A DNA stretch of 27,110 nt from a virus, in the IMG/VR virus record IMGVR_UViG_3300036402_000041, positions 1 through 27,110 of that record; one strand, 5' to 3'. This document shows positions 3,102 through 26,849 of the stretch, piece after piece. Positions within the stretch are counted from its first letter, which is position 1; each line of letters begins with the position of its first letter. The notes below the pieces were generated by a model. It had not been told where the DNA came from. It did no database searches and saw only the letters and a program-made list of their open reading frames with translations. The translations under genes and the position numbers were made by a program.

Positions 3102-3631
3102 TGACCGTCGGAGAGGCGCGCGGCCTCGCCACGTTCCTCCGCTCCATCCGGGGCGACGAGGAGTGGCAGACCTCGAAGATCCTCAACGCCCTCGCCAAGC
3201 TGCAGGACGAGGGGTACACCACCCAGGACATCACCGAAGCGTGCACCGCGATCGCGCTCGACCGGTCGAACCTGTACGCCACGATGCTCTCGATCAAAGC
3301 CCCGGAGATGATCGCGAAGAAGCACGCCGCGAAGGTGAACCTCCGGACCGGTGGCCCGAGCCGGCGCGGCGACGACTCGTTCCTGTGCGACGTGTGCGGG
3401 AAGTCCGAGGGTCGCTGCCAGTCCGACGCGACGAACCTGAACGGCTCTGACCACGCGTTCGTGAACGTCTCGCGCCGCGACCTTGACCGCGACCAGATGC
3501 ACGCCGACGGGCGCATCGCGGCAGCCCGAGCCAACGCGATCTCCAAGGCGGCCAGCGGCCTGTTCGCGCTCCCTGCCGACGTCACCAACCCGACCCATCC
3601 CGAGCCCCAGCAGGAAGAAGAAGCGTCATGA
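3101..3631 (+). CDS. Hypothetical protein between the two methyltransferases, 176 aa
   Basis: The ATG at 3101 is used in a TGATG overlap behind GGTCTGGAGG; a GTG at 3098 in the same frame is the only close alternative. The N-terminal half is helical (EARGLATFLRSIRGDEEW, then ILNALAKLQDEGYTTQDITE). A CDVCGKSEGRCQSD segment (about residues 88-101) could bind one zinc with a partner further on. The C-terminal part is Ala-rich and helical (GRIAAARANAISKAASGLF) with an acidic tail. I do not recognise the family. Its position between two DNA methyltransferases, overlapping both, suggests co-translation with a modification module; that link is inference. Confidence 0.7.
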   Translation: MTVGEARGLATFLRSIRGDEEWQTSKILNALAKLQDEGYTTQDITEACTAIALDRSNLYATMLSIKAPEMIAKKHAAKVNLRTGGPSRRGDDSFLCDVCGKSEGRCQSDATNLNGSDHAFVNVSRRDLDRDQMHADGRIAAARANAISKAASGLFALPADVTNPTHPEPQQEEEAS

Positions 3632-4902
3632 CCGTGCATTACCGCGACGCCGCGGTCACCCTGCATCACGGCGACTGCCTCGACGTGCTCCGTGAGATCC
3701 CCGACAGCAGTGTCGACGCCGTGGTCACCGACCCGCCATACGGGCTGGAGTTCATGGGACGCGAATGGGACGGAGCGGACGGATTTCGTCGCAGCCTGAA
3801 CCCCAACGATGCAGGGCGAGACAACGCCTTTGGCCGCACGTCACGCACCTCCCCTGAGTACTCCACCGGCAAGCCGTCCAACGCCAGAATCCGCACCCGC
3901 GTAGATGGCCGTACGAATCCGACCGAAGGTAAGTCCACGACGACGACGCCCGAGGCATACGTGGCAGGGCCGCCATTTCAGCACTGGTGCGAGGCATGGG
4001 CCACCCAGTGTCTTCGTGTCCTCAAGCCCGGGGGCCACATGCTCGCCTTCGGTGGTTCGCGCACGTGGCACCGCCTCACTGTCGCCATCGAAGACGCTGG
4101 CTTCGAGATCCGCGACTCCATCGCCTGGCTATACGGGAGCGGGTTCCCGAAGTCGCTGAACCTGCTCGACGAGCAAGGCGACCGGACCGGGTGGGGCACC
4201 GCTCTGAAGCCCGCCTTCGAGCCGATCGTCGTCGGCCGAAAGCCCTTCCCGGGCACGGTCGCCACCAACGTGCTGGAGCATGGCACCGGGGCGCTCAATA
4301 TTGATACCTGCCGAACCGGGCTGGCGGCAGCGGATGACTATGGGCGTAGCACGACTAGGTCAGATGGCAGCCGAAGCACGAGCCATGAGGTCTTTGGCGC
4401 GGACCAGCGTGTAATCGCGAGCGAGGCTCACACCTCTGGTCGCTGGCCGACCAACGTCGTACTGGATGAGTCGCAGGCCGCCGAGTTGGACAAGCAGACC
4501 GGCACGCTGACCAGCGGATACCGGCAGGGCGACGCCTACGGGCAGTTCGCGGCGCGAACTGCCACCGAGACCTATGGCGACTCCGGCGGCGCATCGCGGT
4601 TCTTCCCGACCTTCCGCTACGAGGCCAAGGCACCCACCTCTGAGCGTCCCCGTAACGGCGAGATTGCCCACCCCACGGTAAAACCCCTCGACCTCATGCG
4701 CTGGCTGGTGCGCCTCGTCACCCCGCCAGGCGGCACCGTCCTCGAGCCGTTCGCCGGCTCGGGTACGACAGCTGAGGCCTGCGTGATCGAGGGATTCAAG
4801 TGCATCGCGATCGAGCGGGAAGCCGACTACCTACCACTCATCGTCAAACGACTCTCCAAGCCCATTCAGATCGGGCTCGACTTCGAAGGAGGAGCCGCAT
4901 GA
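3628..4902 (+). CDS. DNA methyltransferase, beta class (N4-cytosine/N6-adenine), 424 aa
   Basis: Overlaps the previous gene by ATGA. The catalytic motif DPPYG is at residues 35-39 (VVTDPPYGLEFMGREWD), and the AdoMet-binding motif FAGSGTT is near the C-terminus (375-381), preceded by HPTVKPLDLMRWLVRLVTPP. This order, catalysis motif first and AdoMet motif last, is that of beta-class N4/N6 methyltransferases. Between them are CLRVLKPGGHMLAFGGSRTW (motif V/VI-like strands), IAWLYGSGFPKS, and a variable middle part with GTGALNIDTCR and GRWPTNVVLD, which I take as the target-recognition region. No endonuclease partner is adjacent, so it is probably an orphan enzyme. Target base and sequence cannot be predicted. 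Confidence 0.92.
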   Translation: MTVHYRDAAVTLHHGDCLDVLREIPDSSVDAVVTDPPYGLEFMGREWDGADGFRRSLNPNDAGRDNAFGRTSRTSPEYSTGKPSNARIRTRVDGRTNPTEGKSTTTTPEAYVAGPPFQHWCEAWATQCLRVLKPGGHMLAFGGSRTWHRLTVAIEDAGFEIRDSIAWLYGSGFPKSLNLLDEQGDRTGWGTALKPAFEPIVVGRKPFPGTVATNVLEHGTGALNIDTCRTGLAAADDYGRSTTRSDGSRSTSHEVFGADQRVIASEAHTSGRWPTNVVLDESQAAELDKQTGTLTSGYRQGDAYGQFAARTATETYGDSGGASRFFPTFRYEAKAPTSERPRNGEIAHPTVKPLDLMRWLVRLVTPPGGTVLEPFAGSGTTAEACVIEGFKCIAIEREADYLPLIVKRLSKPIQIGLDFEGGAA

Positions 4903-7051: not shown

Positions 7052-7689
7052 CCACGGACAGCCCCGAGGAAAGCCGTGACGAGCGGTTCTGCGGCGCCCG
7101 GAAGCGGCAGGGCGAGGGGACCTGCACGCAGCCGTCGGGCTGGGGCACGGACCACGTCGGGATCGGGTCCTGCAAGCTGCACGGCGGGTCGATGCAGAAC
7201 CACAAGACGGCGGCGATCACGACGCAGGCGAGGCGTGACGTGGTCCTGTTCGGTGCCCGCCGCGACATCCACCCGGCTGACGCCTTGCTGGAGTTGGTGC
7301 AGTGGACGGCCGGCGAGGTCGACTACTGGCGGCACCGGGTGCGCCTGCTGGACGAGGATGCACTCACGTGGGGTGTGACCCGGGTGAAGGAGGGCGGGGA
7401 TGACCGGGGAACGACGGAGGAGGCGAAGCCGAACGTCGCCTACGTGATGCTGGTGGACGCGAGCAACCGGCTGGAGAAGTACTCGACGGCCGCCCTGAAG
7501 GCTGGCGTGGATGAGCGGCGGGTCAGGTTGGCGGAGCAGCAGGGGACGTTGCTGCATGGCGTCCTGGTGGCCGTTCTGGGCGAGCTGGGGCATGACGTGG
7601 CGCCGGGGTCTGCTGCGGCCCAGGTGATCCTGCGGCACATGGCCCCGCTGCGTGAGGCCGTCGAACTGGGGACGGGGGAAGCGTCGTGA
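7048..7689 (+). CDS. Terminase small subunit (CKLHGG type), 213 aa
   Basis: ATGA overlap at the start. The N-terminal domain has C15, C26, H36, C42 and H45 in FCGARKRQGEGTC, WGTDHVGIGSCKLHGGS, a zinc-ribbon-like motif typical of small terminase subunits in actinophages. It is followed by NHKTAAITTQARRDVV and a long helical region. Small terminase binds the packaging site (cos or pac) on the concatemer, oligomerises and hands DNA to the large subunit. Here it sits about 7.2 kb upstream of the large-subunit gene (14888), separated by accessory and adhesin genes, whereas the two are usually neighbours. Other HGG-motif DNA-binding proteins exist, so certainty is moderate. Confidence 0.72.
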   Translation: MTTDSPEESRDERFCGARKRQGEGTCTQPSGWGTDHVGIGSCKLHGGSMQNHKTAAITTQARRDVVLFGARRDIHPADALLELVQWTAGEVDYWRHRVRLLDEDALTWGVTRVKEGGDDRGTTEEAKPNVAYVMLVDASNRLEKYSTAALKAGVDERRVRLAEQQGTLLHGVLVAVLGELGHDVAPGSAAAQVILRHMAPLREAVELGTGEAS

Positions 7690-8063
7690 GGTACTTCCAT
7701 GGCGGTGCGCCCGGCCTCAAGCCCGGTGACCTGATCGAGCCGAGGCCGCCAGGCGAGGGCAAGCACCTGGTTGATGGCTGCCCGACGTGCGAGGCACGAA
7801 AGGCGGGAGCGCCGATCGAAGGCGATGGCCTGGATCCGACCCTGATCTACGTGACGACCGACCGGGAGTACGCCCGCATCTACGCGGGCGGCTATCCGCT
7901 GGGTGCGCTGTACGTCGTCGAGCCGATCGGAGAGTTGACTCCGTCTCCGGATCCCGTGCCGTCCTGGGGGTGCGAGGCGGCAATCGTGTCCGGGGTCTAC
8001 GACGCGTGCGTCCGCCTATCGCCCGCCCAGGTCCGTCGAGCAGTGAGGAGATACGCCGCATGA
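7686..8063 (+). CDS. Arr-like (rifampin ADP-ribosyltransferase-related) protein, 125 aa
   Basis: GTG start at 7686, overlapping the terminase stop. The sequence follows the Arr family in order: YFHGGAPGLKPGDLIEP (residues 3-19, matching the HGTxxxLKxGDxLxP motif with the conserved His), IYVTTDREYARIYAG (matching IYITxxxxxAxxWG) and ALYVVEPIGELTPSPD (matching the RIFIVEPxGxIEDDPN strand-loop). A final segment CEAAIVSGVYDACVRLSP stands where Arr has its C-terminal strand. An insert with CPTCEARKAG after the first motif is unlike classical Arr. Arr enzymes transfer ADP-ribose from NAD+ to rifamycin; the relatives in phages need not have that substrate and could modify host protein, RNA or NAD-derived signals. 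The fold is fairly likely, the activity open. Confidence 0.65.
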   Translation: MRYFHGGAPGLKPGDLIEPRPPGEGKHLVDGCPTCEARKAGAPIEGDGLDPTLIYVTTDREYARIYAGGYPLGALYVVEPIGELTPSPDPVPSWGCEAAIVSGVYDACVRLSPAQVRRAVRRYAA

Positions 8064-8914
8064 CGACCTACGAAGCCGTACACGCCGATCTGCGGGCTCA
8101 GCCCGCTTTCACAGCCACACCCCCGCAAAGCTGCCTGAATGGATGCCAGGAAGGCACAGGGCCGGAACGAGGCATGGTTTTCTGCCAACCCGCCTACCTC
8201 CTCTGCCCCCGATGCCTCGACCGGCTCGAACACTGGCTCCGCGACATCCCCGACAGCTACGCCCTCCTCCCCGTCGTCCAAGAACACGGCACCGTCCCCG
8301 GCAACCCCGAATCCGCCAAGACGAAACAACCCGACGCACCCGCACCCATGCGCCTCGAAGTCACCGACCTCCTCGACACCCGCGACGGGCGCGGGGCACT
8401 CGGCGTCGTGCATGCCTGGGCGCAGCTCATCCGCGACGAGCGGCGACTCCCCGCACGCCGCTGCCACTGCGACCACGCCCGACCCACCCACGGACAAGGA
8501 CGCGGCCACGACAAAGGCCACTGCACCGCGGCAGGCTGCGGCTGCCGCACCTACACGCCCGGCCCGTACTATGTGCACGCCGAAACCCGCCTGATCCTCG
8601 CCCACCTCGACTGGTGCGGGCAGCAAGAGTTCGCCGGCGACCTGTACCGGGAACTGAAAGACCTCACCCGGCAGATGTCCGACACCATCGGCGACTACCG
8701 GGCGCGGCCTGTCGGGAAGTGCGCGGCCTGGATCGACCGGCCTGGTGCCCCGTTGCAGGTGCTCTGCGGGGGAGCCCTTGTCATGGACCGCGACAAGCAG
8801 GGCGTCGTGTGTCTGGGGTGCGGCAAGGAGTACGCGGCTGACGCCGGGCTGCGCGAGTTGGGGCTCATCGTCGGGGCCATGTTCGGAGACACTAGGCAGC
8901 AGGAGGCGTCGTGA
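8060..8914 (+). CDS. Cysteine-rich multi-zinc-ribbon protein with helical core, 284 aa
   Basis: ATGA overlap at both ends. Three cysteine clusters are visible: C25/C29/C42/C49/C52 (with FCQPAYLLCPRCLDRL), C135/C137/C155/C160/C162 (RRCHCDH, HCTAAGCGCRTY) and C221/C236/C251/C254 (GKCAAW, VLCGG, VVCLGCGKEY). Between them are helical stretches, e.g. ALGVVHAWAQLIRDERRLP and DLYRELKDLTRQMSDTIGDY. This layout resembles actinophage zinc-ribbon/HTH proteins of unknown function; the last 30 residues (YAADAGLRELGLIVG) could form a helix-turn-helix. A nucleic-acid-binding role is likely, the precise task unknown. Confidence 0.75.
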   Translation: MTTYEAVHADLRAQPAFTATPPQSCLNGCQEGTGPERGMVFCQPAYLLCPRCLDRLEHWLRDIPDSYALLPVVQEHGTVPGNPESAKTKQPDAPAPMRLEVTDLLDTRDGRGALGVVHAWAQLIRDERRLPARRCHCDHARPTHGQGRGHDKGHCTAAGCGCRTYTPGPYYVHAETRLILAHLDWCGQQEFAGDLYRELKDLTRQMSDTIGDYRARPVGKCAAWIDRPGAPLQVLCGGALVMDRDKQGVVCLGCGKEYAADAGLRELGLIVGAMFGDTRQQEAS

Positions 8915-9081
8915 TTCGCAGCAGAGTGACCGCAGTTCGTGTCCAGCCAGGCTGGTTCTACGAGGTGTTCGACACCGAGCAGCCGGAAGGCAACCGCGTG
9001 ATAGTGAGCGGCGCACGGCTCACATGGAGGCATGCGATGGACGCGGCGATCTTCTGGCTCAAAAAGCCGCGCCATGACTGA
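8911..9081 (+). CDS. Very small hypothetical protein, 56 aa
   Basis: GTG at 8911 overlaps the previous stop (GTGA) and is preceded by GCAGGAGG. The translation runs VIRSRVTAVRVQPGWFYEVF, then an acidic turn, VIVSGARLTW, a helix HAMDAAIFWLKK and a basic end, with TGA at 9079-9081. It overlaps the next gene by 8 bases. The beta-beta-alpha pattern with conserved aromatics looks like a genuine small domain. Without this frame there would be a 160-base hole in an otherwise unbroken chain. Function unknown. Confidence 0.6.
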   Translation: MIRSRVTAVRVQPGWFYEVFDTEQPEGNRVIVSGARLTWRHAMDAAIFWLKKPRHD

Positions 9082-9310
9082 CCCGGGCAACATCATCGGG
9101 TTCAGCGTCGGCGGCCAGCCTGTCTACGCCAAGCCCTCCAAGCCGCTGCGGCTCGCCAGTCAGTCGATGATCGAGACCATCGAGATCATGGACGAGCGCG
9201 GCAATCAGGGCAGCGACATCGTCTGGGAGATCGCCGTCCACTACAGCCGAAGCTGGAACTTCACGGAGCGGGTGCGCATGGCGTGGCAGATCGTGCGAGG
9301 CAAGGGATGA
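9074..9310 (+). CDS. Small hypothetical protein, 78 aa
   Basis: ATG at 9074 lies inside the end of the preceding gene (8-base overlap); an earlier ATG at 9032 in this frame has no ribosome site and overlaps more. The protein has a polar start (MTDPGNIIGFSVGGQPVYA), a helix-forming centre (SMIETIEIMDERGNQ) and an aromatic end (YSRSWNFTERVRMAWQIV). It has no known motif. It is part of a run of four genes under 80 residues with coupled starts and stops. Confidence 0.6.
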   Translation: MTDPGNIIGFSVGGQPVYAKPSKPLRLASQSMIETIEIMDERGNQGSDIVWEIAVHYSRSWNFTERVRMAWQIVRGKG

Positions 9311-9468
9311 GCGACATGGACAAGAAGCGGCAGGCGATCGAGGCGATCATCTCGGCGAGCTTCCGTGCCGGGGTCGAGGTGGGGCGGCTGTACCGCGAAC
9401 CGGTCGAGCCCATCATTGAGTGGGATGGGCTCAAGCCGCGGATCACCGGCTACAAGGTGGGCGCATGA
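9307..9468 (+). CDS. Very small hypothetical protein, 53 aa
   Basis: ATGA overlap with the previous gene; an in-frame ATG further 5' (9283) is inside that gene. A helix KKRQAIEAIISASFRAGVEV is followed by GRLYREPVEPIIEWDG and a short end KPRITGYKVGA. The helix with RAGVEVGR resembles short phage proteins of unknown role. Supported by exact coupling on both sides (stop overlaps the next ATG at 9465) and codon bias only. Confidence 0.55.
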   Translation: MSDMDKKRQAIEAIISASFRAGVEVGRLYREPVEPIIEWDGLKPRITGYKVGA

Positions 9469-9695
9469 GCGATCCGATCGAGGCTGTCCGTGCCGCGCCT
9501 GGTGAGTTCTTCCTCGCCGCCGAGCAGGTCGCGGTCGGTGACCGGTTCAGGGTCCTGGACGCGGTCTACGAGGTGATGAGCGAGCCGTCGCAGTGGGGTA
9601 TCGCGTGGGTCGCGACCGTGAAGGTCATCGAGGGGTTGAAGCCGGGCAGCGAGTTCCGGGCCATGCTCCACACAGGGCGGAAGGTGGAAGGGTGA
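9465..9695 (+). CDS. Small hypothetical protein, 76 aa, beta-rich
   Basis: ATGA overlap at the start and GTGA at the end. After a short helix (MSDPIEAVRAAPGEFFLAAE) the sequence alternates hydrophobic strands and turns: VAVGDRFRVLDAVYEVMSE, WGIAWVATVKVIEG, SEFRAMLHTG. This reads as a small five-stranded barrel, possibly of the type that binds nucleic acid or modified bases, but no family can be named. Neighbours on both sides are also short and unrecognised. Confidence 0.6.
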   Translation: MSDPIEAVRAAPGEFFLAAEQVAVGDRFRVLDAVYEVMSEPSQWGIAWVATVKVIEGLKPGSEFRAMLHTGRKVEG

Positions 9696-10141
9696 CCGAC
9701 GACGAGATCTCCCGCATGAACGCCCGCATCGGGGCCTACGCGAGCAGGAGCGACGGCACCGAGAACCTCGGCATCGACTGGTTCGAGCACCTCCAGAAGC
9801 CGGACCTGCCGAAGACCAGCGACCCGCTCGCCCGGTTCGTGATCTCCCGCATCATCGAACTGGAGACCGAGCCGCGCGGTGAGATCAAAGCCGCCTACGA
9901 CGAGCCGGCTGGGCCGATGGCACACCGGTACGCCAAGCACGTCCGCCGCGACTGCATCGTGTTCAGGCAGATCGTGCTGGCCTACCTGCAAGCCCACGAC
10001 CGCGCCGAGACCTGCGAAGAGGACCACGACGATTCGGCCGAGCTGAGCGGCGTCATGATTGGGCTACGGCAGGCCGTGTTGGCAGTTGCCAACAGGTGGT
10101 CGGATCACCGCGAGTTCGACCCCGGTTGGAGGCTGACGTGA
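9692..10141 (+). CDS. Hypothetical protein, 149 aa
   Basis: GTG at 9692 overlaps the previous stop (GTGA); preceded by GGAAGGTGGAAGG. The core from residue 40 is helical and conserved-looking: DPLARFVISRIIELETEPRG, then HRYAKHVRRDCIVFRQIVLA, then YLQAHDRAETCEEDHDDS. A final helix is LSGVMIGLRQAVLAVANRW. The pattern of an Arg-rich helix followed by a V-x-FRQIVLAYLQAHD helix recalls DUF-type actinobacterial phage proteins; I cannot name the DUF with confidence. It is soluble, with no membrane span. Role unknown. Confidence 0.65.
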   Translation: MTDDEISRMNARIGAYASRSDGTENLGIDWFEHLQKPDLPKTSDPLARFVISRIIELETEPRGEIKAAYDEPAGPMAHRYAKHVRRDCIVFRQIVLAYLQAHDRAETCEEDHDDSAELSGVMIGLRQAVLAVANRWSDHREFDPGWRLT

Positions 10142-10527
10142 GCAAGCTTCAGTGGCTCTTGCTGATCTGCCGCCTGGTGACCTTCGCGGCCATGGTGGTG
10201 GCTCTCGTGGCTGCTCTGCTCGCTGGGCGATGGCAGCGCCAAGCCGCACGCGCTCGTCGGGAGACGGCGAGGATCGTGGCTGGCGGGCCAGTCCCACCGG
10301 TACGCCGCTCCGAGCAGGACCCTCGGGAGTTCTTCATCCCACTGACTGGCACGGATATGCCACGCCTGACTTGGGGGGGAAACGGCAAACCAGCACCTAT
10401 AGCCAGACGTATGACCCTCCCGCCTGCCGGTGGCGGTTACCGCGCGCTCCCCGGACCGACCCCGCCCAGAGGCACGCCACCCACTCCGCCCCGACCAAGC
10501 AACGGCGGAGCCACGACAGCCCGGTAA
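10138..10527 (+). CDS. Small single-pass membrane protein, 129 aa
   Basis: GTG at 10138 overlaps the previous stop (GTGA). Residues 4-29 form one hydrophobic helix (LQWLLLICRLVTFAAMVVAL plus VAALLAG) followed by WQRQAARARRETAR, so the positive-inside rule puts the C-terminal part in the cytoplasm. The rest is Pro/Gly-rich and probably disordered (PPAGGGYRALPGPTPPRGT). One transmembrane segment near the N-terminus with a basic cytoplasmic tail could be an accessory membrane protein; holin or superinfection-exclusion roles are possible but nothing specific supports them. It is the last gene before a hairpin at 10532. Confidence 0.6.
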   Translation: MSKLQWLLLICRLVTFAAMVVALVAALLAGRWQRQAARARRETARIVAGGPVPPVRRSEQDPREFFIPLTGTDMPRLTWGGNGKPAPIARRMTLPPAGGGYRALPGPTPPRGTPPTPPRPSNGGATTAR

Positions 10528-10531
10528 CGCA

Positions 10532-10563
10532 GCGAGCGCCCAGCCGGCCAGCCAGGCGCTCGC
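10532..10563 (+). terminator. Hairpin after the accessory gene chain; possible terminator
   Basis: A perfect 9-bp inverted repeat, GCGAGCGCC (10532-10540) and GGCGCTCGC (10555-10563), with a 14-base loop, starts four bases after the TAA of the membrane-protein gene. There is no T-run, but T-less terminators are common in high-GC actinobacteria. It separates the long coupled chain of genes from the HTH gene at 10628. The 100 bases 10528-10627 hold no other feature I can support. Confidence 0.45.
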
Positions 10564-10627
10564 AACAGTCCCTCAGCAGGGTGTCGAACCGCACAGCCAT
10601 CATGACACCTGCAACGGGGGGCACGCC

Positions 10628-10870
10628 GTGACTGACCTGCCGCGCTACACCGACGACGAGGCGTTCGCGCTCGGACTGCATCCAGCCAATGCGTTCCGGG
10701 CGTTCTCCCTTGCCCCCGGCACGATCAGGGCCTGGGCATCGGCTGGCCACATCCAAGCCCGGGGGATCGGGGCGCGGGGTGCCCGGCTGTACGTGGTCGC
10801 TGAGGTCGCGGCCTACTCGAAACGTGACCTGAAGCGCCCTGGTCCGCGCCGATTGTCCAGTGTCGCGTGA
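10628..10870 (+). CDS. MerR-like helix-turn-helix protein, 80 aa
   Basis: GTG at 10628, with GGGGGG a few bases upstream as ribosome site; an in-frame extension 5' is Pro-rich shadow. The N-terminus (YTDDEAFALGLHPANAFRAF) leads to the helix-turn-helix SLAPGTIRAWASAGHIQARG and a wing GARGARLYVVAEVAAYSKR. The T-I-R-x-W-A...G-x-I pattern with a basic wing is that of MerR-type or excisionase-like small DNA-binding proteins. It is the only gene in the left half set apart on both sides: hairpin upstream, TGTCGC-repeat region downstream, which begins at its own stop. A regulator acting at that region is an attractive inference. Excisionase is the alternative; no integrase is in the window. Confidence 0.65.
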   Translation: MTDLPRYTDDEAFALGLHPANAFRAFSLAPGTIRAWASAGHIQARGIGARGARLYVVAEVAAYSKRDLKRPGPRRLSSVA

Positions 10871-10926
10871 CACCTTGTCGCGTGTCGCTTGACATGGTTC
10901 GTTGAATTCGGCAACACTCAGCGACA
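10860..10926 (+). promoter_or_regulatory. TGTCGC repeat region with weak promoter candidate
   Basis: TGTCGC occurs directly at 10861, 10876 and 10883, and inverted (GCGACA) at 10921-10926; a further direct copy lies at 10964. The first lies in the inverted repeat GTGTCGCGTGACAC (arms GTGTC/GACAC, 10860-10873), overlapping the HTH gene's stop. A perfect TTGACA (10889-10894) is followed after 18 bases by AACACT (10913-10918), a poor -10. This looks like an operator/promoter region for the rightward structural genes. The rest of the 10871-11090 gap holds only the hairpin at 11019. Confidence 0.4.
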
Positions 10927-11018
10927 GCGGGCGAGGTATCTCTACTCACCGTCACCACTTGAATGTCGCGCTCCACAGAGCGCGCAGCCTCCACGCTTCG
11001 ACCCCGTGGACGCCCCCC

Positions 11019-11058
11019 GCGAAGCCCCGGCTCCCCACCTGGAAGCCGGGGCCTTCGC
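11019..11058 (+). terminator. Strong GC hairpin in the leader before the adhesin genes
   Basis: GCGAAGCCCCGGCT (11019-11032) pairs with AGCCGGGGCCTTCGC (11044-11058), one C bulged, loop of 11 bases. It is one of the strongest hairpins in the window, with the look of a factor-independent terminator without T-run. It lies 33 bases before the ATG of the collagen-like gene, so it either ends readthrough from the left operon or structures the leader RNA of the right operon. Which depends on where the promoter is. Confidence 0.5.
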
Positions 11059-11090
11059 ATTCCCCCGAGCCCCGCTGGAGGTGACACGCC

Positions 11091-11855
11091 ATGGCCATCC
11101 CCGCCGAGTGGAACACTCGCACCGTCGAGCGCACCTACAAGGACGAGCTCGACAACCCAATGACCGGCTTCGTCACCTTCACTGCGACCGTCGGCTACGT
11201 CGAAAACACGGCAGAAACCACCGCCTGGTTCTCCCGGCCTGTCCGCGTCGCCCTCGACGGCACCGGCAAAGCCTCCGCGCTGCTGCGCACATCCGACCCG
11301 GACATGCCGCAGCACGGCTACACCCACAAGGTCGTCGAAGAACTCGCCTACGCGGTCGTCTCCGGGCAGCCGACACCTGAGCCGATCACCAACACGTACT
11401 ACATCCTCGTCGAGCCAGGCGCATCCCCGCTCGAGTACGGGCTACTCGCCCCCGTCCAGCCCGGACAGGGCGTCGTCGTTGTCCCCGGCCTCGAAGGACC
11501 GCAAGGCCCTCCCGGCGCCGACGGAGCACCTGGAGCCCCCGGTGCCCCCGGCGCGACCGGTGCCACTGGTGCGACAGGCGCAGCTGGTGCACCCGGTGAC
11601 ATCTCCGGGCTAGCGACCATCGCCACCACCGGTCACCTGAGCGACGCCACGGACTATGTCGCGCCGATGACCACGTCCGAGCGCAAGACCGAGGGCATCC
11701 TCGCTGACCGGGTCATGACCCAGGTCCGGTTCGTGTCCGGCGCCTACGAGACGATCGTCAACTCCTCGCGCCTCTGCCGCGTCTTCACCGGCACCGCAGC
11801 CAACGACCCCGCGGCCGCAGCCAACGAAGACGATCTCTGGCTCGTTCTGCCATGA
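11091..11855 (+). CDS. Minor tail/fibre protein with collagen-like repeat, 254 aa
   Basis: ATG at 11091 behind CTGGAGGTGAC. The N-terminal domain (1-110) is beta-rich (MTGFVTFTATVGYVE, VRVALDGTGKASALLRTSD, VVEELAYAVVSG, NTYYILVEPG). This is the type of small sandwich that heads phage appendage proteins and probably attaches to the virion. Residues 133-168 are 12 Gly-X-Y triplets (GPQGPPGADGAPGAP...), a triple-helix-forming stalk, so the protein should be a trimer. The C-terminal part (170-254) could cap the stalk; it ends in NEDDLWLVLP. Collagen-like stalks are common in phage tail fibres. It overlaps the next gene, a tailspike-like protein, by ATGA, forming an adhesin module placed before the large terminase. 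Confidence 0.75.
   Translation: MAIPAEWNTRTVERTYKDELDNPMTGFVTFTATVGYVENTAETTAWFSRPVRVALDGTGKASALLRTSDPDMPQHGYTHKVVEELAYAVVSGQPTPEPITNTYYILVEPGASPLEYGLLAPVQPGQGVVVVPGLEGPQGPPGADGAPGAPGAPGATGATGATGAAGAPGDISGLATIATTGHLSDATDYVAPMTTSERKTEGILADRVMTQVRFVSGAYETIVNSSRLCRVFTGTAANDPAAAANEDDLWLVLP
11487..11594 (+). repeat. Collagen-like Gly-X-Y coding repeat (12 triplets)
   Basis: Twelve consecutive Gly-X-Y triplets, GLE GPQ GPP GAD GAP GAP GAP GAT GAT GAT GAA GAP, are encoded by a 9-base-period pattern of GGN-NCN-CCN codons. The DNA is locally repetitive (GGTGCCACTGGTGCGACAGG), so copy number may vary by slippage between relatives, changing stalk length. Confidence 0.85.
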
Positions 11856-20817: not shown

Positions 20818-21174
20818 ATGGCCACGAACGAGCTGTACGACGAGGCGGAGAACCTTCTCCTCCCGGTCATCGCCGGAACCGTCTCCGGTGGCCCGGTGAT
20901 CGTCGGGATGCTCCCCGGCGTCGCCCTCACCACCCGTGACGCGAGCGGCAACGCGATGGTCACGACCGAGGGCGCCTACAAGGTGTCCGTCACTGGCGCG
21001 ATCACGTTCATCGGCCAGCCGGTGTACATCACCAGCGCCACCTACGCCCTCGTCGTCGCCCCGGGCGCCGGGATCCAGCTGTACGGCCACGCCCTGTCGC
21101 TGAAGAGCGCCGGCGCCGCAGTCATCCCCGTCCGCATCGCACCGTTCGCTGTCGCCAGCGACGCGCCCGCCTGA
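20818..21174 (+). CDS. DUF2190-like capsid decoration protein, 118 aa
   Basis: ATG at 20818, one base after the protease stop, with GGGGGCC upstream and likely coupling. The whole protein is a beta sandwich in the style of DUF2190/capsid-decoration proteins: ELYDEAENLLLPVIAGTVSG, GPVIVGMLPGVALTTRDASG, TTEGAYKVSVTGAITFIGQP, VYITSATYALVVAPG. The SGxPVxVGxLxGVALT pattern and the location just before the major capsid gene fit. Such proteins trimerise on the head surface or stabilise the shell; this role is by family resemblance. Confidence 0.82.
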   Translation: MATNELYDEAENLLLPVIAGTVSGGPVIVGMLPGVALTTRDASGNAMVTTEGAYKVSVTGAITFIGQPVYITSATYALVVAPGAGIQLYGHALSLKSAGAAVIPVRIAPFAVASDAPA

Positions 21175-21194: not shown

Positions 21195-22337
21195 ATGACG
21201 ACCACTGAGTTGTTCCTCACGGGCGATGCCGCAGTCGCTGAGGGCGGCGCGCTCACCGTTCAGCGCCGCTCCGGGAACCCGCAGCACCTTGCCCGCGTCG
21301 CTGAAGCCGCCAAGCTCACCAAGCGGGTGTTCGAGGGCGACCGGCGCGCCATGCTCCAGGTCCAGGAGCTCATGACCACGTCGGACTTCCCGAAGCTGTT
21401 CGGGGATGTCCTCGACCGGGCGCTCCTCGCCCAGTACGAGCAGATCTCGCCGATCTGGTCGGGAGTCGCGACCCGCGTGCAGGTCAACGACTTCCGCGCC
21501 AAGCACTGGATCGACCTGCTCGGTGGCCGCGCCGAGCTCGACCCGGTCGGGCAGGGCGGCGAGTACCCGGCGCGCGCACTGACCGAGGGCGACTACAACC
21601 TCACGGTCGGGAAGTTCGGTGCCCGTCTCCCGCTGACCTGGGAGATGATCATCAACGACGACCTGGGTGCGTTCCAGACCGCGCCGGCCCGTCTCGCGCA
21701 GGCCGCGGTCGACACCGAGGACAAGCTGAACACCCGCCTCTACGCGACCGCGACCGGCCCGAACACGGCGTTCTTCACCGGAGCGACCGCGCCCGACAAC
21801 AAGGCGCTGACCGTCGACAACCTGTCGGCCGCGCTCACCACGGTCGCGACCCGCAGGGACTCCGACAACCGGCCGATCATGATCCGGGCGTTCGTCCTGG
21901 TCGTGCCGCCGGCGCTCGAGGTCATGGCGCACAACATCGTCAACGCAACGCTGATCCGGCTCCGCAACGACGCCTCCTCGGCGTCGGGCGCCCGCGACAT
22001 CGAGGTCACGAACTGGCTGGCTGGCAAGGTCACGATCGTCACGAACCCGTGGCTGCCGGTCATCGACCTGTCCGGTTCGGGTGCGAACGCCGCGAAGACC
22101 TGGTACCTGTTCCCGGCGCCGTCGACTCCGCGCCCGGCCCTGGTCATGGGCTTCCTGCGCGGGCACGAGACCCCGGACCTGCGGGTCAAGGCCGATGGTG
22201 GCCAGCGTGTCGGCGGCGGCAGCGTCCCGGCCGAGGAGGGGTCGTTCGACAACGACGACATCCAGTACCGGATCCGTCACGTCACGGGCGGCACCACGCT
22301 CGACCCGATCGCGACCTACGCCTCAGTCGGTCCGTGA
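21195..22337 (+). CDS. Major capsid protein, HK97 fold, 380 aa
   Basis: ATG at 21195 behind AGAGGAG. Order and size fit a phage major head protein: an N-terminal arm (about 1-60), an E-loop-like region with RVQVNDFRAKHWIDLL and GGEYPARALTEGDYNLTVGK, a spine helix region (TAPARLAQAAVDTEDKLNTR), and P-domain strands with RAFVLVVPPALEVMAHNIVN, KVTIVTNPWLPVIDLSGSG and AKTWYLFPAPSTPRPALVMG. The C-terminal part has DNDDIQYRIRHVTGGTTLDP, where the last A-domain strand is expected. It is preceded by protease/scaffold and decoration genes and followed by connector genes. No cleavage site for the arm is marked with confidence. Confidence 0.9.
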   Translation: MTTTELFLTGDAAVAEGGALTVQRRSGNPQHLARVAEAAKLTKRVFEGDRRAMLQVQELMTTSDFPKLFGDVLDRALLAQYEQISPIWSGVATRVQVNDFRAKHWIDLLGGRAELDPVGQGGEYPARALTEGDYNLTVGKFGARLPLTWEMIINDDLGAFQTAPARLAQAAVDTEDKLNTRLYATATGPNTAFFTGATAPDNKALTVDNLSAALTTVATRRDSDNRPIMIRAFVLVVPPALEVMAHNIVNATLIRLRNDASSASGARDIEVTNWLAGKVTIVTNPWLPVIDLSGSGANAAKTWYLFPAPSTPRPALVMGFLRGHETPDLRVKADGGQRVGGGSVPAEEGSFDNDDIQYRIRHVTGGTTLDPIATYASVGP

Positions 22338-22713: not shown

Positions 22714-23256
22714 ATGTCTGCCATCGTCGCGGGCGACCTGCTGTTCAAGTACTCGGTGGTCGCAGCCGCCGGCAACACCACGGCCAGCGCACCCGCCACT
22801 GCCCTCGGAGACCAGATCTCGACGTCCGCCTGGGCTGGTGGGTCGCTGAATGACCTGTTCGATGACATCTCTGGCGCCGAGAACGCGGCCTCGACGGTCG
22901 ACTACCGGTGCATCTTCGTCCACAACTCCAATGCGTCGAACACGCTGGAGAACGCGGTCGTCTACCTGTCGGCCGAGGTCGGGGGCGGGGCGGGAGTCGC
23001 GGTCGGCGCGGACACCACCGCCGCTTCCGTGATCGCATCGGCCTCCGCGCAGGCGTTGACGATCGCCAACGAGACGACTGCGCCAGCCGGAGTCACCTTC
23101 TCCAGCCCGACTACCGCAGCGGGAGGCGTGGCCCTCGGCAACATCCCGGTCGGTCAGTGCAAGGCGTTCTGGGTCCGCCGTACCGCGGCCAACTCGGCGG
23201 CCCTCTCGGCCGACGGGGTCACCATCGCGGTCGCCGGAGACACCGGCTCGCTGTAG
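22714..23256 (+). CDS. Putative virion structural protein, 180 aa
   Basis: ATG at 22714 with TTGAGGAGCACCC before it. The protein is beta-rich and Ala/Thr/Ser-rich, with YRCIFVHNSNASNTLENAVV (about residues 64-83), ANETTAPAGVTFSSP and a final GQCKAFWVRRTAANSAALSA. This Y-R-C-I-x-V-x-N-x-(8)-L-x-N-A-x-V and T-T-A-P-x-G-V-x-F pattern recurs in virion proteins of unrelated phages, usually without defined role. The place after capsid and before the W-repeat protein suggests head surface or head-tail. Function unknown. Confidence 0.72.
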   Translation: MSAIVAGDLLFKYSVVAAAGNTTASAPATALGDQISTSAWAGGSLNDLFDDISGAENAASTVDYRCIFVHNSNASNTLENAVVYLSAEVGGGAGVAVGADTTAASVIASASAQALTIANETTAPAGVTFSSPTTAAGGVALGNIPVGQCKAFWVRRTAANSAALSADGVTIAVAGDTGSL

Positions 23257-23292
23257 CAGCCCGCACCTGACGCCGGTGAAGGAGGCGAGCTC

Positions 23293-25497
23293 GTGCCCAC
23301 GGTAACCAACCTCACCTCCGGTGCCGGCTCGGCTGCTACGTCGTTCGCCACGGCTTCAGTTGCCCCGACCGGGAACCGTCTGATCCTGGTTTCGGTCCAC
23401 GCCTACATCTCCACCGGTTCGGTCCAGCCGGCCACTCCGACGGTCACCGGCAACGGCATCACCTACACCCTCGTGCAGGCGCAGGACGTTGATACGTCCG
23501 GTGTTGACCGGGCCACCGAATGGGTGTTCCGCGGCCTAGCCACGAGCCCGAGCAGCGGCGCCATCACCATCTCGTTCGGTGCGGTCACGATGACCCGCTG
23601 CGCCTGGTCGGTGGATCAATCCGATTCGGACATCGACCTGTCCGGTGTCAATGGTGCTGGCGCGATCGCTCAGAAGGTCGGAGCCACCAGCGCCGGCGCG
23701 ACGAGCCTCAGCGTCAGCTACTCACCGGCGATGCGCTCCGATAGCGCCGGGTACTCCGCCTGGGGTCACCAGGTCCAAGAGGTCAAGACCCCGCGTACTT
23801 CGTGGACCGAATTGTCGGATGTCACCTCCGTCACCTTGGCGACCATGGAGACGCAGTTCTTCTCCGGCACCGACACGGCCGCATCCGCCTCATGGACCAC
23901 CAGTTCCCGCGCCGGTGGCATCGCGATCGAGATCAAGAAGGCCGCCCCGTTCATCTGGTCCGGCGAGTACGGACTGCAGGGCGGGACGACTGGGCTGACG
24001 ATGATCCCGCCCGCGGGCACCGTCGCCGGTGATCTCGACGTCATCTGGGTGCTGAACAAGAACTCCAGCGTCGACCCGACCGACCCGGGTAGCGGCTGGC
24101 TCAGGATCGGCAGCGCTGAGCTCGGCACGGGCGCTGATGGCGTGGGGACCGGCAAGATCCGCTTCACTGCCTGGTACCGGATCCTGACCGGGGCATCCAC
24201 GAACACCACGGTCTCCGCCGGCGCCGCGAACCGGATGATCGGTGGCGGCATGACCTACCACCTCACCGGTGCTGGGGCATGGACTACGCCGACGATCGCT
24301 TTCGGGGAGGATGTCGACGCATCCACCACAGCCTTCGTGGCGCTGATGACAACCGACCTCGCGGCCGGAGTCGACGACTACACCCTGTCTGTCGGTGGCT
24401 TCACTGCGATCACCACCCTTCCAGGGCGATCGCTCACGATCCCCAACTCGACACAGAGCCGGTTGGACAACATCAACTCCGCCGGCGGCGCGGTCGGGAA
24501 CACGATCTTCGCGTGGAGCGATCAGCGGGTCGGGATGGTCGGCACCCAGTCCGGCGCTGCAACGACTGGCGCGACCTCTGGCGTGGGTACGACCGGTGGC
24601 GCGATGCAGATCCGCATCCGCATGGCCGGCACGACAACGGTCAGCGGAACGCGTGCAACGACCTGGCGAGCACTCACGCAGATCACCGCAACCCGCGGCA
24701 CTACCTGGCGCGTCCTGACCGCTGCGGTCGGCAGCAGGGCATCAACATGGCGAGTCCGGTCGGCGGTTACCGCGACCCGGGCCACGACCTGGCGAGTAGC
24801 GGCCACGGTTGCGTCTCTCAGGGCAACCACTTGGGATGTCCTGACCTCGACCGTCGCCAGTCGCGCAACGACCTGGCGCACCCGCGCGCAGGTCACCCCG
24901 ACCAGGGCAACCACGTGGCGGACCCGCTCGCTCGCCGTCGGCGCCAGGGTAACGACCTGGAACGTGGACCAGTCGGCCACGGTCGTCGCAACCCGCTCGA
25001 CCACCTGGGCCGTTGCAGGCCGGGTTACATCGACCCGCTCGACCACCTGGGACACGCTCACCCGAACCACCGTCACGCGCGCCACGACCTGGGATGCCAC
25101 CGCGGTCGTCTCCGCTGCCCGCAGTACGACTTGGCGGACGCGGCAGGCAGTCCAGGCCAGCAAGAACACGACCTGGCGAGTCCGTGCGACCACCACGGCG
25201 CCCCGGACGACGACCTGGAACACCGCCACGCGGGCCAGTAGTAGCGCCTCTGCCATTTGGCGGACCCTCGCTGCCACCAGTAGCAGCCGGGCGGCCAATT
25301 GGCGGCTGCTCGAGGTGGTCGCCGCCACCCGCAGCACCGGATGGGCCGTGGCCAGCAACCTCGTCCCGCAGACAGGCGAATCGGTGCTCACTGCAAGCAA
25401 CAGCCCGTCCAGCGTCCTAGTCGCGACCAACCCCCGCCCGACCCTGACCCCATCGAACGCCCCATCGAGCCAACTGGAGGTGAGCCATGGCGTATGA
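23293..25497 (+). CDS. Large beta-domain protein with 17 tandem 14-residue Trp repeats, 734 aa
   Basis: GTG at 23293 behind GAAGGAGGCGAG. Residues 1-215 and 220-440 look like two related beta-sandwich or jelly-roll domains (NRLILVSVHAYISTG, TVTGNGITYTLVQAQDVDTS; and GLTMIPPAGTVAGDLDVIWV, TAWYRILTGAS). From 453 to 690 the protein is a tandem repeat with Trp every 14 residues from W458 to W684, one interval of 16; consensus R-[AS]-T-T-W-[RD]-[VT]-L-T-x-x-[VT]-x-[AS]-[TS]. A Ser/Thr/Pro tail ends it. The gene lies between capsid and connectors, so it may be a capsid or neck fibre; a tail role is possible. It overlaps the next gene by 11 bases. I recall TTW repeats in actinobacterial phage proteins but know no function. 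Confidence 0.75.
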   Translation: MPTVTNLTSGAGSAATSFATASVAPTGNRLILVSVHAYISTGSVQPATPTVTGNGITYTLVQAQDVDTSGVDRATEWVFRGLATSPSSGAITISFGAVTMTRCAWSVDQSDSDIDLSGVNGAGAIAQKVGATSAGATSLSVSYSPAMRSDSAGYSAWGHQVQEVKTPRTSWTELSDVTSVTLATMETQFFSGTDTAASASWTTSSRAGGIAIEIKKAAPFIWSGEYGLQGGTTGLTMIPPAGTVAGDLDVIWVLNKNSSVDPTDPGSGWLRIGSAELGTGADGVGTGKIRFTAWYRILTGASTNTTVSAGAANRMIGGGMTYHLTGAGAWTTPTIAFGEDVDASTTAFVALMTTDLAAGVDDYTLSVGGFTAITTLPGRSLTIPNSTQSRLDNINSAGGAVGNTIFAWSDQRVGMVGTQSGAATTGATSGVGTTGGAMQIRIRMAGTTTVSGTRATTWRALTQITATRGTTWRVLTAAVGSRASTWRVRSAVTATRATTWRVAATVASLRATTWDVLTSTVASRATTWRTRAQVTPTRATTWRTRSLAVGARVTTWNVDQSATVVATRSTTWAVAGRVTSTRSTTWDTLTRTTVTRATTWDATAVVSAARSTTWRTRQAVQASKNTTWRVRATTTAPRTTTWNTATRASSSASAIWRTLAATSSSRAANWRLLEVVAATRSTGWAVASNLVPQTGESVLTASNSPSSVLVATNPRPTLTPSNAPSSQLEVSHGV
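24649..25344 (+). repeat. 42-bp coding tandem repeat, 17 copies (TTW repeat)
   Basis: TGG codons recur in frame from 24664 to 25342, every 42 bases except one 48-base step. The DNA core around each is close to (A/G)CN-ACC-TGG-CG with synonymous and conservative changes, so units have diverged and the array is old. The last four copies lose the TT (SAIW, AANW, STGW), as end units often do. All copies stay in one frame of the 734-residue protein, so this is a protein repeat and not a CRISPR array. Confidence 0.92.
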
Positions 25498-26092
25498 CGT
25501 AGGCGACATCGCAGTGTTCACCCTCGGCGTCGCACCGCACGACGGGACGACGGGCGTGACGGTGGTCGTCCGGGCGCCCGATGGCACCGAGAGCCCAGTG
25601 ACCCCGACCCCGTCAGGTGGCGGCGCGACCTGGACCGTGCAGGTACCCCTCACCGCCGCCGCGACCTGGTACGTCACATGGACCGTCACTGGCACCGGCG
25701 CGGGCGTGCAGTCGGACAGCGCCGAAGCCGACCCGGTACCGCCCCCGTCGGACGCGCAACGCCAGACCCGGCTGCTCATCGCGGACACGGACCCTGCGAA
25801 CCGGTTCTTCTCGACGCTGCAACTCGCCGACTTTCTCGCCATGAACGGCGACTCGGTACGCCGAGCAGCCGCGCAAGCCCTCGACGTGTGGGCCGCGAAC
25901 GAAGCGATGGTATCGAAGAAGATCACCACCCAGGACCTCCAGACCGACGGGCCGGCTGTTGCCGCCGCACTGCGGGCGAGCGCGACCGAGCTCCGCCGGC
26001 AAGCCGACGCGGGCGAGGGTTCCAGCGACGACATCGGCTTCGAGATCGTCGAGTACAAGCCGTACCCGCACCACTCCGGCTGGCGGTACTGA
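25487..26092 (+). CDS. Head-tail connector protein with N-terminal Ig-like domain, 201 aa
   Basis: ATG at 25487 behind TGGAGGTGAG, overlapping the W-repeat gene by 11 bases. Residues 1-85 form an Ig/FN3-like sandwich (DVGDIAVFTLGVAPHDG, VTVVVRAPDGTESPVTPTPS, AATWYVTWTVTGTGAGVQSD). After a Pro linker the helical connector part begins (RQTRLLIADTDPANRFFSTL, QLADFLAMNGDSVRRAAAQA, LDVWAANEAMVSKKIT), the layout of gp6/gp15-type adaptor proteins that sit under the portal. The fused Ig-like domain would face outwards. Assignment of the C-terminal part is by pattern and position; the fusion itself is plain from the sequence. Confidence 0.78.
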   Translation: MAYDVGDIAVFTLGVAPHDGTTGVTVVVRAPDGTESPVTPTPSGGGATWTVQVPLTAAATWYVTWTVTGTGAGVQSDSAEADPVPPPSDAQRQTRLLIADTDPANRFFSTLQLADFLAMNGDSVRRAAAQALDVWAANEAMVSKKITTQDLQTDGPAVAAALRASATELRRQADAGEGSSDDIGFEIVEYKPYPHHSGWRY

Positions 26093-26508
26093 TGCCGTTT
26101 CCTGGCTCCCGGGTCATCGTCCCCAGGTGGGAAGCGCACCACCGGCCCGTGCTGGCGACGACCCGGACCGCGATGATCACGTTCCGCCGGATCTCCGGTC
26201 CGCCCGTGCACGACCCCGCGACCGGGTCCACCGACCAGCCGCGGACGGTCGTCTACACCGGGTCATGCCGCATCCAGGAACACCAGATCAACGCCCACTC
26301 CGCTGTCGCCGGCGCGGAACTGATCACGACCCACGCCTACCAGGTGTCCCTCGATGTAGCGGCGGCTCTACAGAAGGACGACATCGGCACCGTTGACGCC
26401 AGCAACGACCCGACCCTCGTCGGCCGGGAGTTGCGCGTCAACGACATCCAGCGCGGCTCGCTCCTGTTCGAGCGCGACGTGATCTGTATCGATGACCTGG
26501 AGGCCTGA
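26092..26508 (+). CDS. Head-tail stopper-type protein (DUF6093-like), 138 aa
   Basis: TGATG overlap with the connector gene. The protein is a small beta barrel: TRTAMITFRRISGPPVHDPA, RTVVYTGSCRIQEHQIN, HAYQVSLDVAAALQKDDIG, GRELRVNDIQRGSLLFERDV. This pattern (start strand with MITFRR, a central TGxCRIQ, a Y-x-V-x-L/I strand and the D-D-x-x strand) is that of actinophage proteins I know as DUF6093, which occupy the stopper slot below the connector ring. The next gene overlaps by TGATG. Function is inferred from position. Confidence 0.78.
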   Translation: MPFPGSRVIVPRWEAHHRPVLATTRTAMITFRRISGPPVHDPATGSTDQPRTVVYTGSCRIQEHQINAHSAVAGAELITTHAYQVSLDVAAALQKDDIGTVDASNDPTLVGRELRVNDIQRGSLLFERDVICIDDLEA

Positions 26509-26849
26509 TGCACTTCGACGTCTCCGAACTCCAGGCCCTGGAGCGGGACCTGGTGAAGGGTGCCGCGAGGGTCGAGAAGACCGCGCCGCTCATCGTCAAG
26601 AAGTCCGCGCTCGACATCGAGGCCGACGGCAAGATCAACGCCCCCGTAGACACCGGGACGCTGCAGAACTCGATCTCCAGCGACATCAACGGGCTCACCG
26701 CCGAGATCGGCCCGTCCACGGACTACGAGGCCTACGTCGAGTACGGCACCAGCAAGATGGCCGCCCAGCCGTACATGGGGCCAGCCGCCGAGAAGAACAC
26801 CCCGGCATTCGAGCAGGCGCTCGGCAAGGTCGCGGAGAAGATCCTGTGA
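26508..26849 (+). CDS. HK97 gp10-like head-tail/tail-completion protein, 113 aa
   Basis: TGATG overlap at the start. The sequence fits the gp10-like family: a long N-terminal helix (ELQALERDLVKGAARVEKTA), KKSALDIEADGKINAPVDTG with the family's A-P-V-D-T-G motif, GTLQNSISSDI, then YEAYVEYGTSKMAAQPYMGP with the Y-x-x-x-V-E-Y-G-T motif and the QPYMGPA end. Such proteins sit at the head-tail joint and help attach the tail. The order connector, stopper, gp10, tail terminator is the usual one for siphoviruses. Confidence 0.9.
   Translation: MHFDVSELQALERDLVKGAARVEKTAPLIVKKSALDIEADGKINAPVDTGTLQNSISSDINGLTAEIGPSTDYEAYVEYGTSKMAAQPYMGPAAEKNTPAFEQALGKVAEKIL

Follow-up and report, generated by a model that had tools for sequence, protein, structure and literature searches.

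A 14-residue tryptophan repeat of phage proteins is co-inherited with the phrog_13135 family and may serve as a docking backbone of a virion appendage

What is the role of a protein with a strict 14-residue tryptophan period that is encoded among the structural genes of a phage? The question is raised by the window analysed here, the whole of a 27,110-base IMG/VR record that carries terminase, portal, head morphogenesis and maturation protease genes. In this record, a head decoration or cement protein (20818-21174; Phage_cement_2, phrog_122) and the major capsid protein (21195-22337; Phage_capsid_4, E 3e-47) are followed by a single gene encoding a 180-residue protein of the phrog_13135 family (22714-23256; matched by profile to this PHROG of unknown function), and then by the repeat protein gene (23293-25497), which encodes 734 residues from a GTG start codon with a Shine-Dalgarno sequence, AAGGAGG, at 23279-23285. 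An HK97-gp10/Neck1 protein (26508-26849; PF04883, phrog_5) is encoded further downstream, and these five genes all lie on the + strand. The first-pass annotation had placed the repeat gene between capsid and connector genes. The capsid gene upstream and the Neck1 gene downstream agree with this placement, but the gene directly 3' of the repeat gene (25487-26092, + strand) matches only PHROGs of unknown function (phrog_18316 and phrog_17896), and labelling it a connector is thus not supported. The best capsid matches in cultured phages have 36-39% identity and include proteins from Streptomyces and Arthrobacter phages. Together with the high G+C content of the window and an Arthrobacter member of the repeat family (below), this makes an actinobacterial host likely. 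Elsewhere in the window, the product of 11091-11855 is probably a tail fibre protein, as judged from matches to tail fibre PHROGs, and has a short repeat that is probably collagen-like (tandem DNA repeats at 11511-11598), and the gene at 3628-4902 encodes a DNA methyltransferase (phrog_67, E 5e-89).

The array comprises 17 units of 14 residues from R454 to W684 (24652-25344, + strand). Translation of 23293-25497 confirmed the spacing that had drawn attention to the protein: the 17 tryptophans from W458 (codon 24664-24666) to W684 (codon 25342-25344) lie 14 residues apart at every step except W556-W572, which spans 16 residues (a single longer unit, W556 to residue 571; 24958-25005, + strand). 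Residues 441-700 contain 15 tryptophan pairs at a lag of 14, whereas 20,000 shuffles averaged 0.99 such pairs and had at most 6, so that none reached the observed count. The R-[AS]-T-T-W context that had been attributed to each tryptophan was too strict a description, being found in 9 of the 17 units; [RK]-x-T-T-W occurs in 13, Arg or Lys occupies position -4 in 16, and the last three units are degenerate (ASAIW, RAANW and RSTGW). The consensus of the array is W-R-[TV]-x-[AT]-x-V-T-x-T-R-A-T-T. Tandem Repeats Finder gave no report over the array, and the units share on average 35% of their residues and 47% of their nucleotides. The array is repetitive as a protein rather than as a recent tandem array at the DNA level, and this low identity among units indicates that its regularity is more likely to stem from selection at the protein level than from recent duplication.

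The two beta-sandwich domains that the first-pass annotation proposed at the N-terminus have no sequence resemblance to each other. Two N-terminal regions precede the array (residues 1-220, 23293-23952; residues 221-445, 23953-24627), and a Pro/Ser/Thr-rich tail with low pLDDT follows it (residues 685-734, 25345-25494; all + strand). The C-terminal tails are variable among the repeat proteins of relatives. A search with the whole 734-residue protein returned no match in Pfam, PHROGs, the PDB or cultured phages. The N-terminus matches three loci only, L002, L003 and L004. The first region is conserved in all three (82% identity in L002, 63-65% in L003 and L004) and the second is common to L002 only; its place is taken by a LamG domain in L003 (Pfam) and by a similar stretch, read by eye, in L004. 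These three proteins end in a different repeat, of the type GTxAATQANQTASASG. In its longer form this alternative C-terminal repeat reads GTxAATQANQTASASGQLGY (L002:7407-9575, L003:6916-9189 and L004:7956-10055).

Relatives of the array were sought in viral contigs with a DNA pattern that required four T-W pairs spaced 42 bases apart, chosen because the low-complexity filter hides such repeats in protein searches, and the frames were then read individually. About two dozen loci were found to carry the same kind of array; L132, L133 and an Arthrobacter metagenome-assembled genome (MAG; L130) came from a second pattern of greater stringency. Loci that the first pattern had caught in chance frames were set aside on reading, as were further matches of the stricter pattern in bacterial genomes, where the Arthrobacter MAG is the sole true member. 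Matches on Klebsiella and Staphylococcus plasmids were also set aside, their repeats being unrelated; on the Klebsiella plasmid pKP18-3-8_KPC_vir, a hypothetical ORF beside a RepB gene contains 14-residue PQRWRVNG repeats (L136:7647-8792), which are possibly plasmid DNA repeats read as protein. The expectation that similar repeats occur in other phages was therefore correct. The view that the repeat has no described structure or role also stands: it is absent from Pfam, PHROGs and the PDB, and our literature searches on the repeat and its partner found neither the repeat nor the pairing described.

Repeat statistics were compiled from 26 proteins, including that of the window, by counting W-W steps of 13 to 22 residues. 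Of 665 such steps, 524 are exactly 14 residues long, and the family consensus, with Trp as position 1, is W-[NDA]-[VT]-[LRK]-A-x-V-[TSA]-x-[TS]-R-[AS]-T-[TS]. In units of 15-17 residues, the additional residues mostly fall in the V3-V7 or the V7-R11 interval, so that R-A-T-T-W-x-V is uninterrupted, a length pattern that would fit a strand followed by a tolerant turn. Since longer units occur in relatives, the 16-residue unit of the window is a family trait rather than a defect. Like its relatives, the window protein has an aromatic residue every 14 positions, Val or Thr at +2 and Val at +6. The arginine, which the first-pass annotation suggested could stack with Trp and zip the array along its length, is not general, and Leu, Thr or Ser is often found in its place in other lineages, where W1, V3 and V7 are kept. 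Single repeat proteins contain up to 60 tryptophans.

The other repeat proteins have N-termini unlike that of the window protein, and several carry recognizable domains: LamG in L030, L036 and L150, and CBM_4_9 in L120. In L150 (7550-10795), a LamG domain and an apiosidase-like catalytic domain are split by runs of the Trp repeat in a protein that adjoins phrog_13135, possibly an enzyme-bearing appendage. L172 contains one protein that combines a TQAQ-type repeat with Tyr-type 14-mers. From these domain arrangements, the repeat is a portable module fused to many anchors. Thus, the original proposal of a stand-alone rod can be only part of the story. A regular, beta-forming repeat in a structural-gene setting is supported, but the same module is found on gp15 (below), LamG, CBM and glycosidase domains. 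The low-complexity composition, and the position of LamG, CBM_4_9 and apiosidase-like domains between or beside the repeats (L036, L030, L120 and L150), could also be read as signs of a flexible, mostly unfolded linker that spaces lectin and enzyme domains, in which case the link to phrog_13135 would reflect nothing but inheritance of a gene block. We regard this as very unlikely: W1, V3 and V7 are kept across lineages despite a unit identity of only about 35%, and the distribution of the partner gene described below also argues against it.

We predicted the structure of the array with AlphaFold2 (AF2) from 45 aligned arrays. The first-pass annotation had suggested a regular solenoid. AF2 indeed draws a 14-residue coil with a strand at R-x-T-T-W-x-V, in which polar and apolar residues alternate, and pLDDT is about 71-82 over the first 170 residues; over the whole model, however, the mean pLDDT is 66 with a pTM of 0.52, and the five models range from 66 to 37. 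AF2 has been reported to overpredict beta-solenoids for repeats (PMC11795689). Foldseek comparison of the array model with the PDB gave no significant match, and a repeat profile search against the PDB gave no match. These results bear on a second alternative, in which the array folds on its own into a beta-solenoid or a trimeric fibre shaft, with phrog_13135 capping it, anchoring it or decorating the same site. The predicted coil, its alternating strands and the proteins with up to 60 tryptophans speak for such a rod, while the spread of model confidence, the missing PDB fold match and the reported bias of the method towards solenoids speak against it, and we consider it rather unlikely.

A close known comparison for such a rod is the triple beta-spiral, whose repeat is about 15 residues long. 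As in these fibre shafts (adenovirus fibre type), the array has a short beta repeat of similar length that tolerates longer loops. It differs in having one conserved Trp per unit, a co-inherited separate partner and no sequence match in the PDB. Membership of this class was rejected on composition: over the 524 units, Pro does not exceed 11% and Gly stays below 10% at any of the 14 positions, leaving no conserved Gly/Pro turn, a point that also weakens the case for an autonomous shaft.

The gene directly upstream gave a clearer lead. The product of 22714-23256 matches the phrog_13135 profile over its whole length (E 6.4e-25, profile positions 3-181 of 182), and 36 bases separate the end of its stop codon from the start codon of the repeat gene. 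A phrog_13135 gene is placed directly 5' of the repeat gene in the window, L030, L042 and L093, with one small gene intervening in L035. To establish how general this is, we ran the family profile against the complete records from which the loci came. It was found in 23 of 26 repeat-bearing records (E 1e-46 to 1e-86; the window is not counted in the 26), compared with 3 of 40 controls, which were contigs on which the T-W pattern had matched in chance frames. One of these three positive controls, L056, contains a true array (C-T-W-N-D-L). With the loci that built the profile left out, the pairing is characterized by a Fisher p of 4e-10. Two of the three repeat-bearing records without phrog_13135, L068 and L133, are fragments that start inside the repeat gene and lack its upstream side; the third, L122, contains repeats but lacks phrog_13135 over 33 kb. 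The same whole-record search found phrog_13135 in none of L002-L004, which share the N-terminus of the window protein but carry the other repeat. That the N-terminus is retained while repeat and partner are both absent is at odds with the inheritance of a mere gene block around a linker.

The pairing was also examined in reverse, by a scan for phrog_13135 that was blind to the repeat. This yielded 57 new loci with 805 ORFs of at least 150 residues. A long chain of aromatic residues spaced by 14 was present in 29 of the 805 ORFs and in none of 805 shuffled ones, with exactly one such ORF in each of 29 loci, 10 of which are on contigs known from the repeat scan and 19 on contigs that it had not caught. 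The remaining loci are cut by contig ends, contain few or variant units, or contain hardly any. Reading by eye revealed Tyr-type units in L172 and a His-type 14-mer in L197, where 14-residue units next to phrog_13135 (7492-11230) have His in the aromatic place (SHRLLVLVDGDLSG). The latter suggests that the 14-residue period is more conserved than the Trp itself. Among the 57 loci, L153 shows a single unit and no repeat was found for L154 and L166; the distant phrog_13135-like proteins G033 and G044 have no recognisable 14-mer nearby. Across 43 loci, distance between repeat profiles tracks distance between phrog_13135 sequences (Mantel r 0.75, reached by 0 of 5000 permutations), as expected under co-evolution, although shared descent alone may account for it. 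A related spacing is seen in Aeromonas phage vB_C4, where a large tail protein encoded after the tape measure gene (L134:5385-9965) has a terminal run of about 20 almost identical units of 14 residues (PYGLRSTVQAELLP), which space their aromatic, Leu and Val residues as the Trp repeat does. Phrog_13135 was not found in this phage despite its Tyr-type 14-mers, which are perhaps convergent with the Trp repeat. The co-inherited partner, which the earlier reading missed, is a more important finding than a lone rod, and as far as we have searched, the link between phrog_13135 and the 14-residue repeat is new.

With a permissive threshold, phrog_13135 was found in 54 records of a phage collection, and almost all of these are KVP40-like Vibrio phages. 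KVP40 encodes it as the hypothetical protein KVP40.0353, between gp15 and gp16. The gp15 of KVP40 is 450 residues long and has C-terminal repeats such as DIDWSTRAVVTSVN. A gp15 with a 14-residue aromatic extension, followed directly by phrog_13135, is found in KVP40, nt-1, D479, F86, 6E35.1a, VS2, 1.081.O and phi-Grn1. Relative to the gp15 of T4, a tail terminator and sheath stabilizer, these variants thus carry a C-terminal repeat of the same pattern and then phrog_13135. In T4, KP15, SW69-9, Acj9, P-SSM2, K440 and S-ShM2, gp15 has 228-280 residues and no repeats, and none of these seven is among the phrog_13135 matches; the terminase small-subunit gene lies directly 3' of gp15 in all but P-SSM2, where one other gene intervenes. 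Thus, in a gene block that is otherwise alike, the gp15 extension and phrog_13135 either both occur or are both missing. This again disfavors a linker with a passively inherited neighbor, since the KVP40-like phages have both additions while the surrounding T4-like block is otherwise conserved. A third, unrelated phage, the Alteromonas schitovirus PT15-A5, encodes a small protein with Tyr-type 14-mers directly 5' of its phrog_13135 homolog. The window protein has no gp15 domain detectable with PHROG or Pfam profiles. In Vibrio phage 1.081.O, "CRISPR spacers" of 20-26 bases at 42-base steps have been annotated inside gp15 (L135:3281-3474; MG592456.1, 238315-238508). They coincide with the region coding for the 14-residue (42-base) repeat and are thus most likely a misannotation. 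A head fibre has been reported for phi-St2/phi-Grn1 (PMC12796354). We do not equate it with the gp15 repeat protein, gp15 being a neck protein.

The predicted structure of phrog_13135 is an eight-stranded beta-sandwich (pLDDT 90.4, pTM 0.89); rows from annotated records were left out of one structure prediction. Foldseek returned nothing significant for it in the PDB (best E 0.016) and one good match in BFVD, an uncharacterised viral protein. The weak PDB matches of the predicted model include type 1 or chaperone-usher pilins, which we take as a hint only, the FimF and FimI matches not being significant. Chaperone-usher pili offer a possible mode by analogy: in donor-strand exchange, each beta-sandwich subunit is completed by a strand of another chain. 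Here, the proposed donor strands would instead stand in tandem on one long chain. Fourteen extended residues span about 45 Å, which is near the length of a small beta-sandwich domain.

Co-inheritance in unrelated phages suggests that the repeat protein and phrog_13135 build a virion appendage together. Since the anchors differ and the repeat alone is common to them, phrog_13135 most likely acts on the repeat. We give about an even chance to the array being a portable docking backbone that works with phrog_13135 in a head or neck appendage. The array would hang from a virion anchor, the N-terminal region of the 734-residue protein in the window and the neck protein gp15 in KVP40-like phages. 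From one 14-residue unit to the next, an identical short x-x-T-T-W-x-V strand would be presented, with a turn after it that tolerates changes in length. Units of this kind, each with a fixed seven-residue strand and present in about 5 to some 50 copies, would suit multivalent docking of beta-sandwiches, favoring a beaded whisker or sleeve of phrog_13135 subunits bound along the units at the head or neck. The lectin and glycosidase domains in or beside the arrays of relatives may then bring the appendage into contact with host or environmental glycans. Speaking against this reading are L122 and phage vB_C4, in which 14-residue repeats occur without phrog_13135, and conversely G033, G044, L154 and L166, where phrog_13135 or a distant likeness of it has no recognisable array nearby; in addition, no proteomic proof of either protein in virions was found. 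In its most specific form, to which we give somewhat less than an even chance, one phrog_13135 beta-sandwich is captured per strand unit, like beads on a string, the encoded number of repeats sets the length of the decorated filament, and fusion to one anchor after another, the KVP40-like neck among them, has carried the module across unrelated phage families. The family, its modular fusions and the co-inheritance are direct observations; from them we infer the physical binding, the ratio of one subunit per unit, strand donation, virion location and glycan contact.

The strictness of the pairing, and the fact that the two genes are often neighbours in several lineages, would equally be expected if phrog_13135 were an assembly chaperone that helps the array to fold or shields it, in the manner of phage fibre chaperones, and were no stoichiometric part of the virion; chains rich in Thr, Ser and Trp could aggregate. 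We nonetheless hold a chaperone to be unlikely, because phrog_13135 lies upstream of the repeat gene in window-like phages and downstream of gp15 in Vibrio phages, always among structural genes, and because chaperone action alone gives no account of length changes that fall only between fixed strands. Docking along the array would resemble known head appendages in general position: the capsid fibres of phages 7-7-1, phiCbK and phi29 make the first contact with the host (PMC12796354), and those of phi29 are helical according to a title cited there. The window protein may share such a location, judging from its gene position; no sequence relation to these fibres is apparent.

Taken together, an isolated repeat of an uncultured phage becomes part of a two-gene module that is present in the cultured model phages KVP40 and nt-1. 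For the first time, there is thereby a clue to the function of phrog_13135 and to that of the long C-terminal stretch by which gp15 is extended in KVP40-like phages. Should partner binding proceed unit by unit, the array would be a ruler for a protein filament whose setting is genetic, and phage appendages could be built in a new way.
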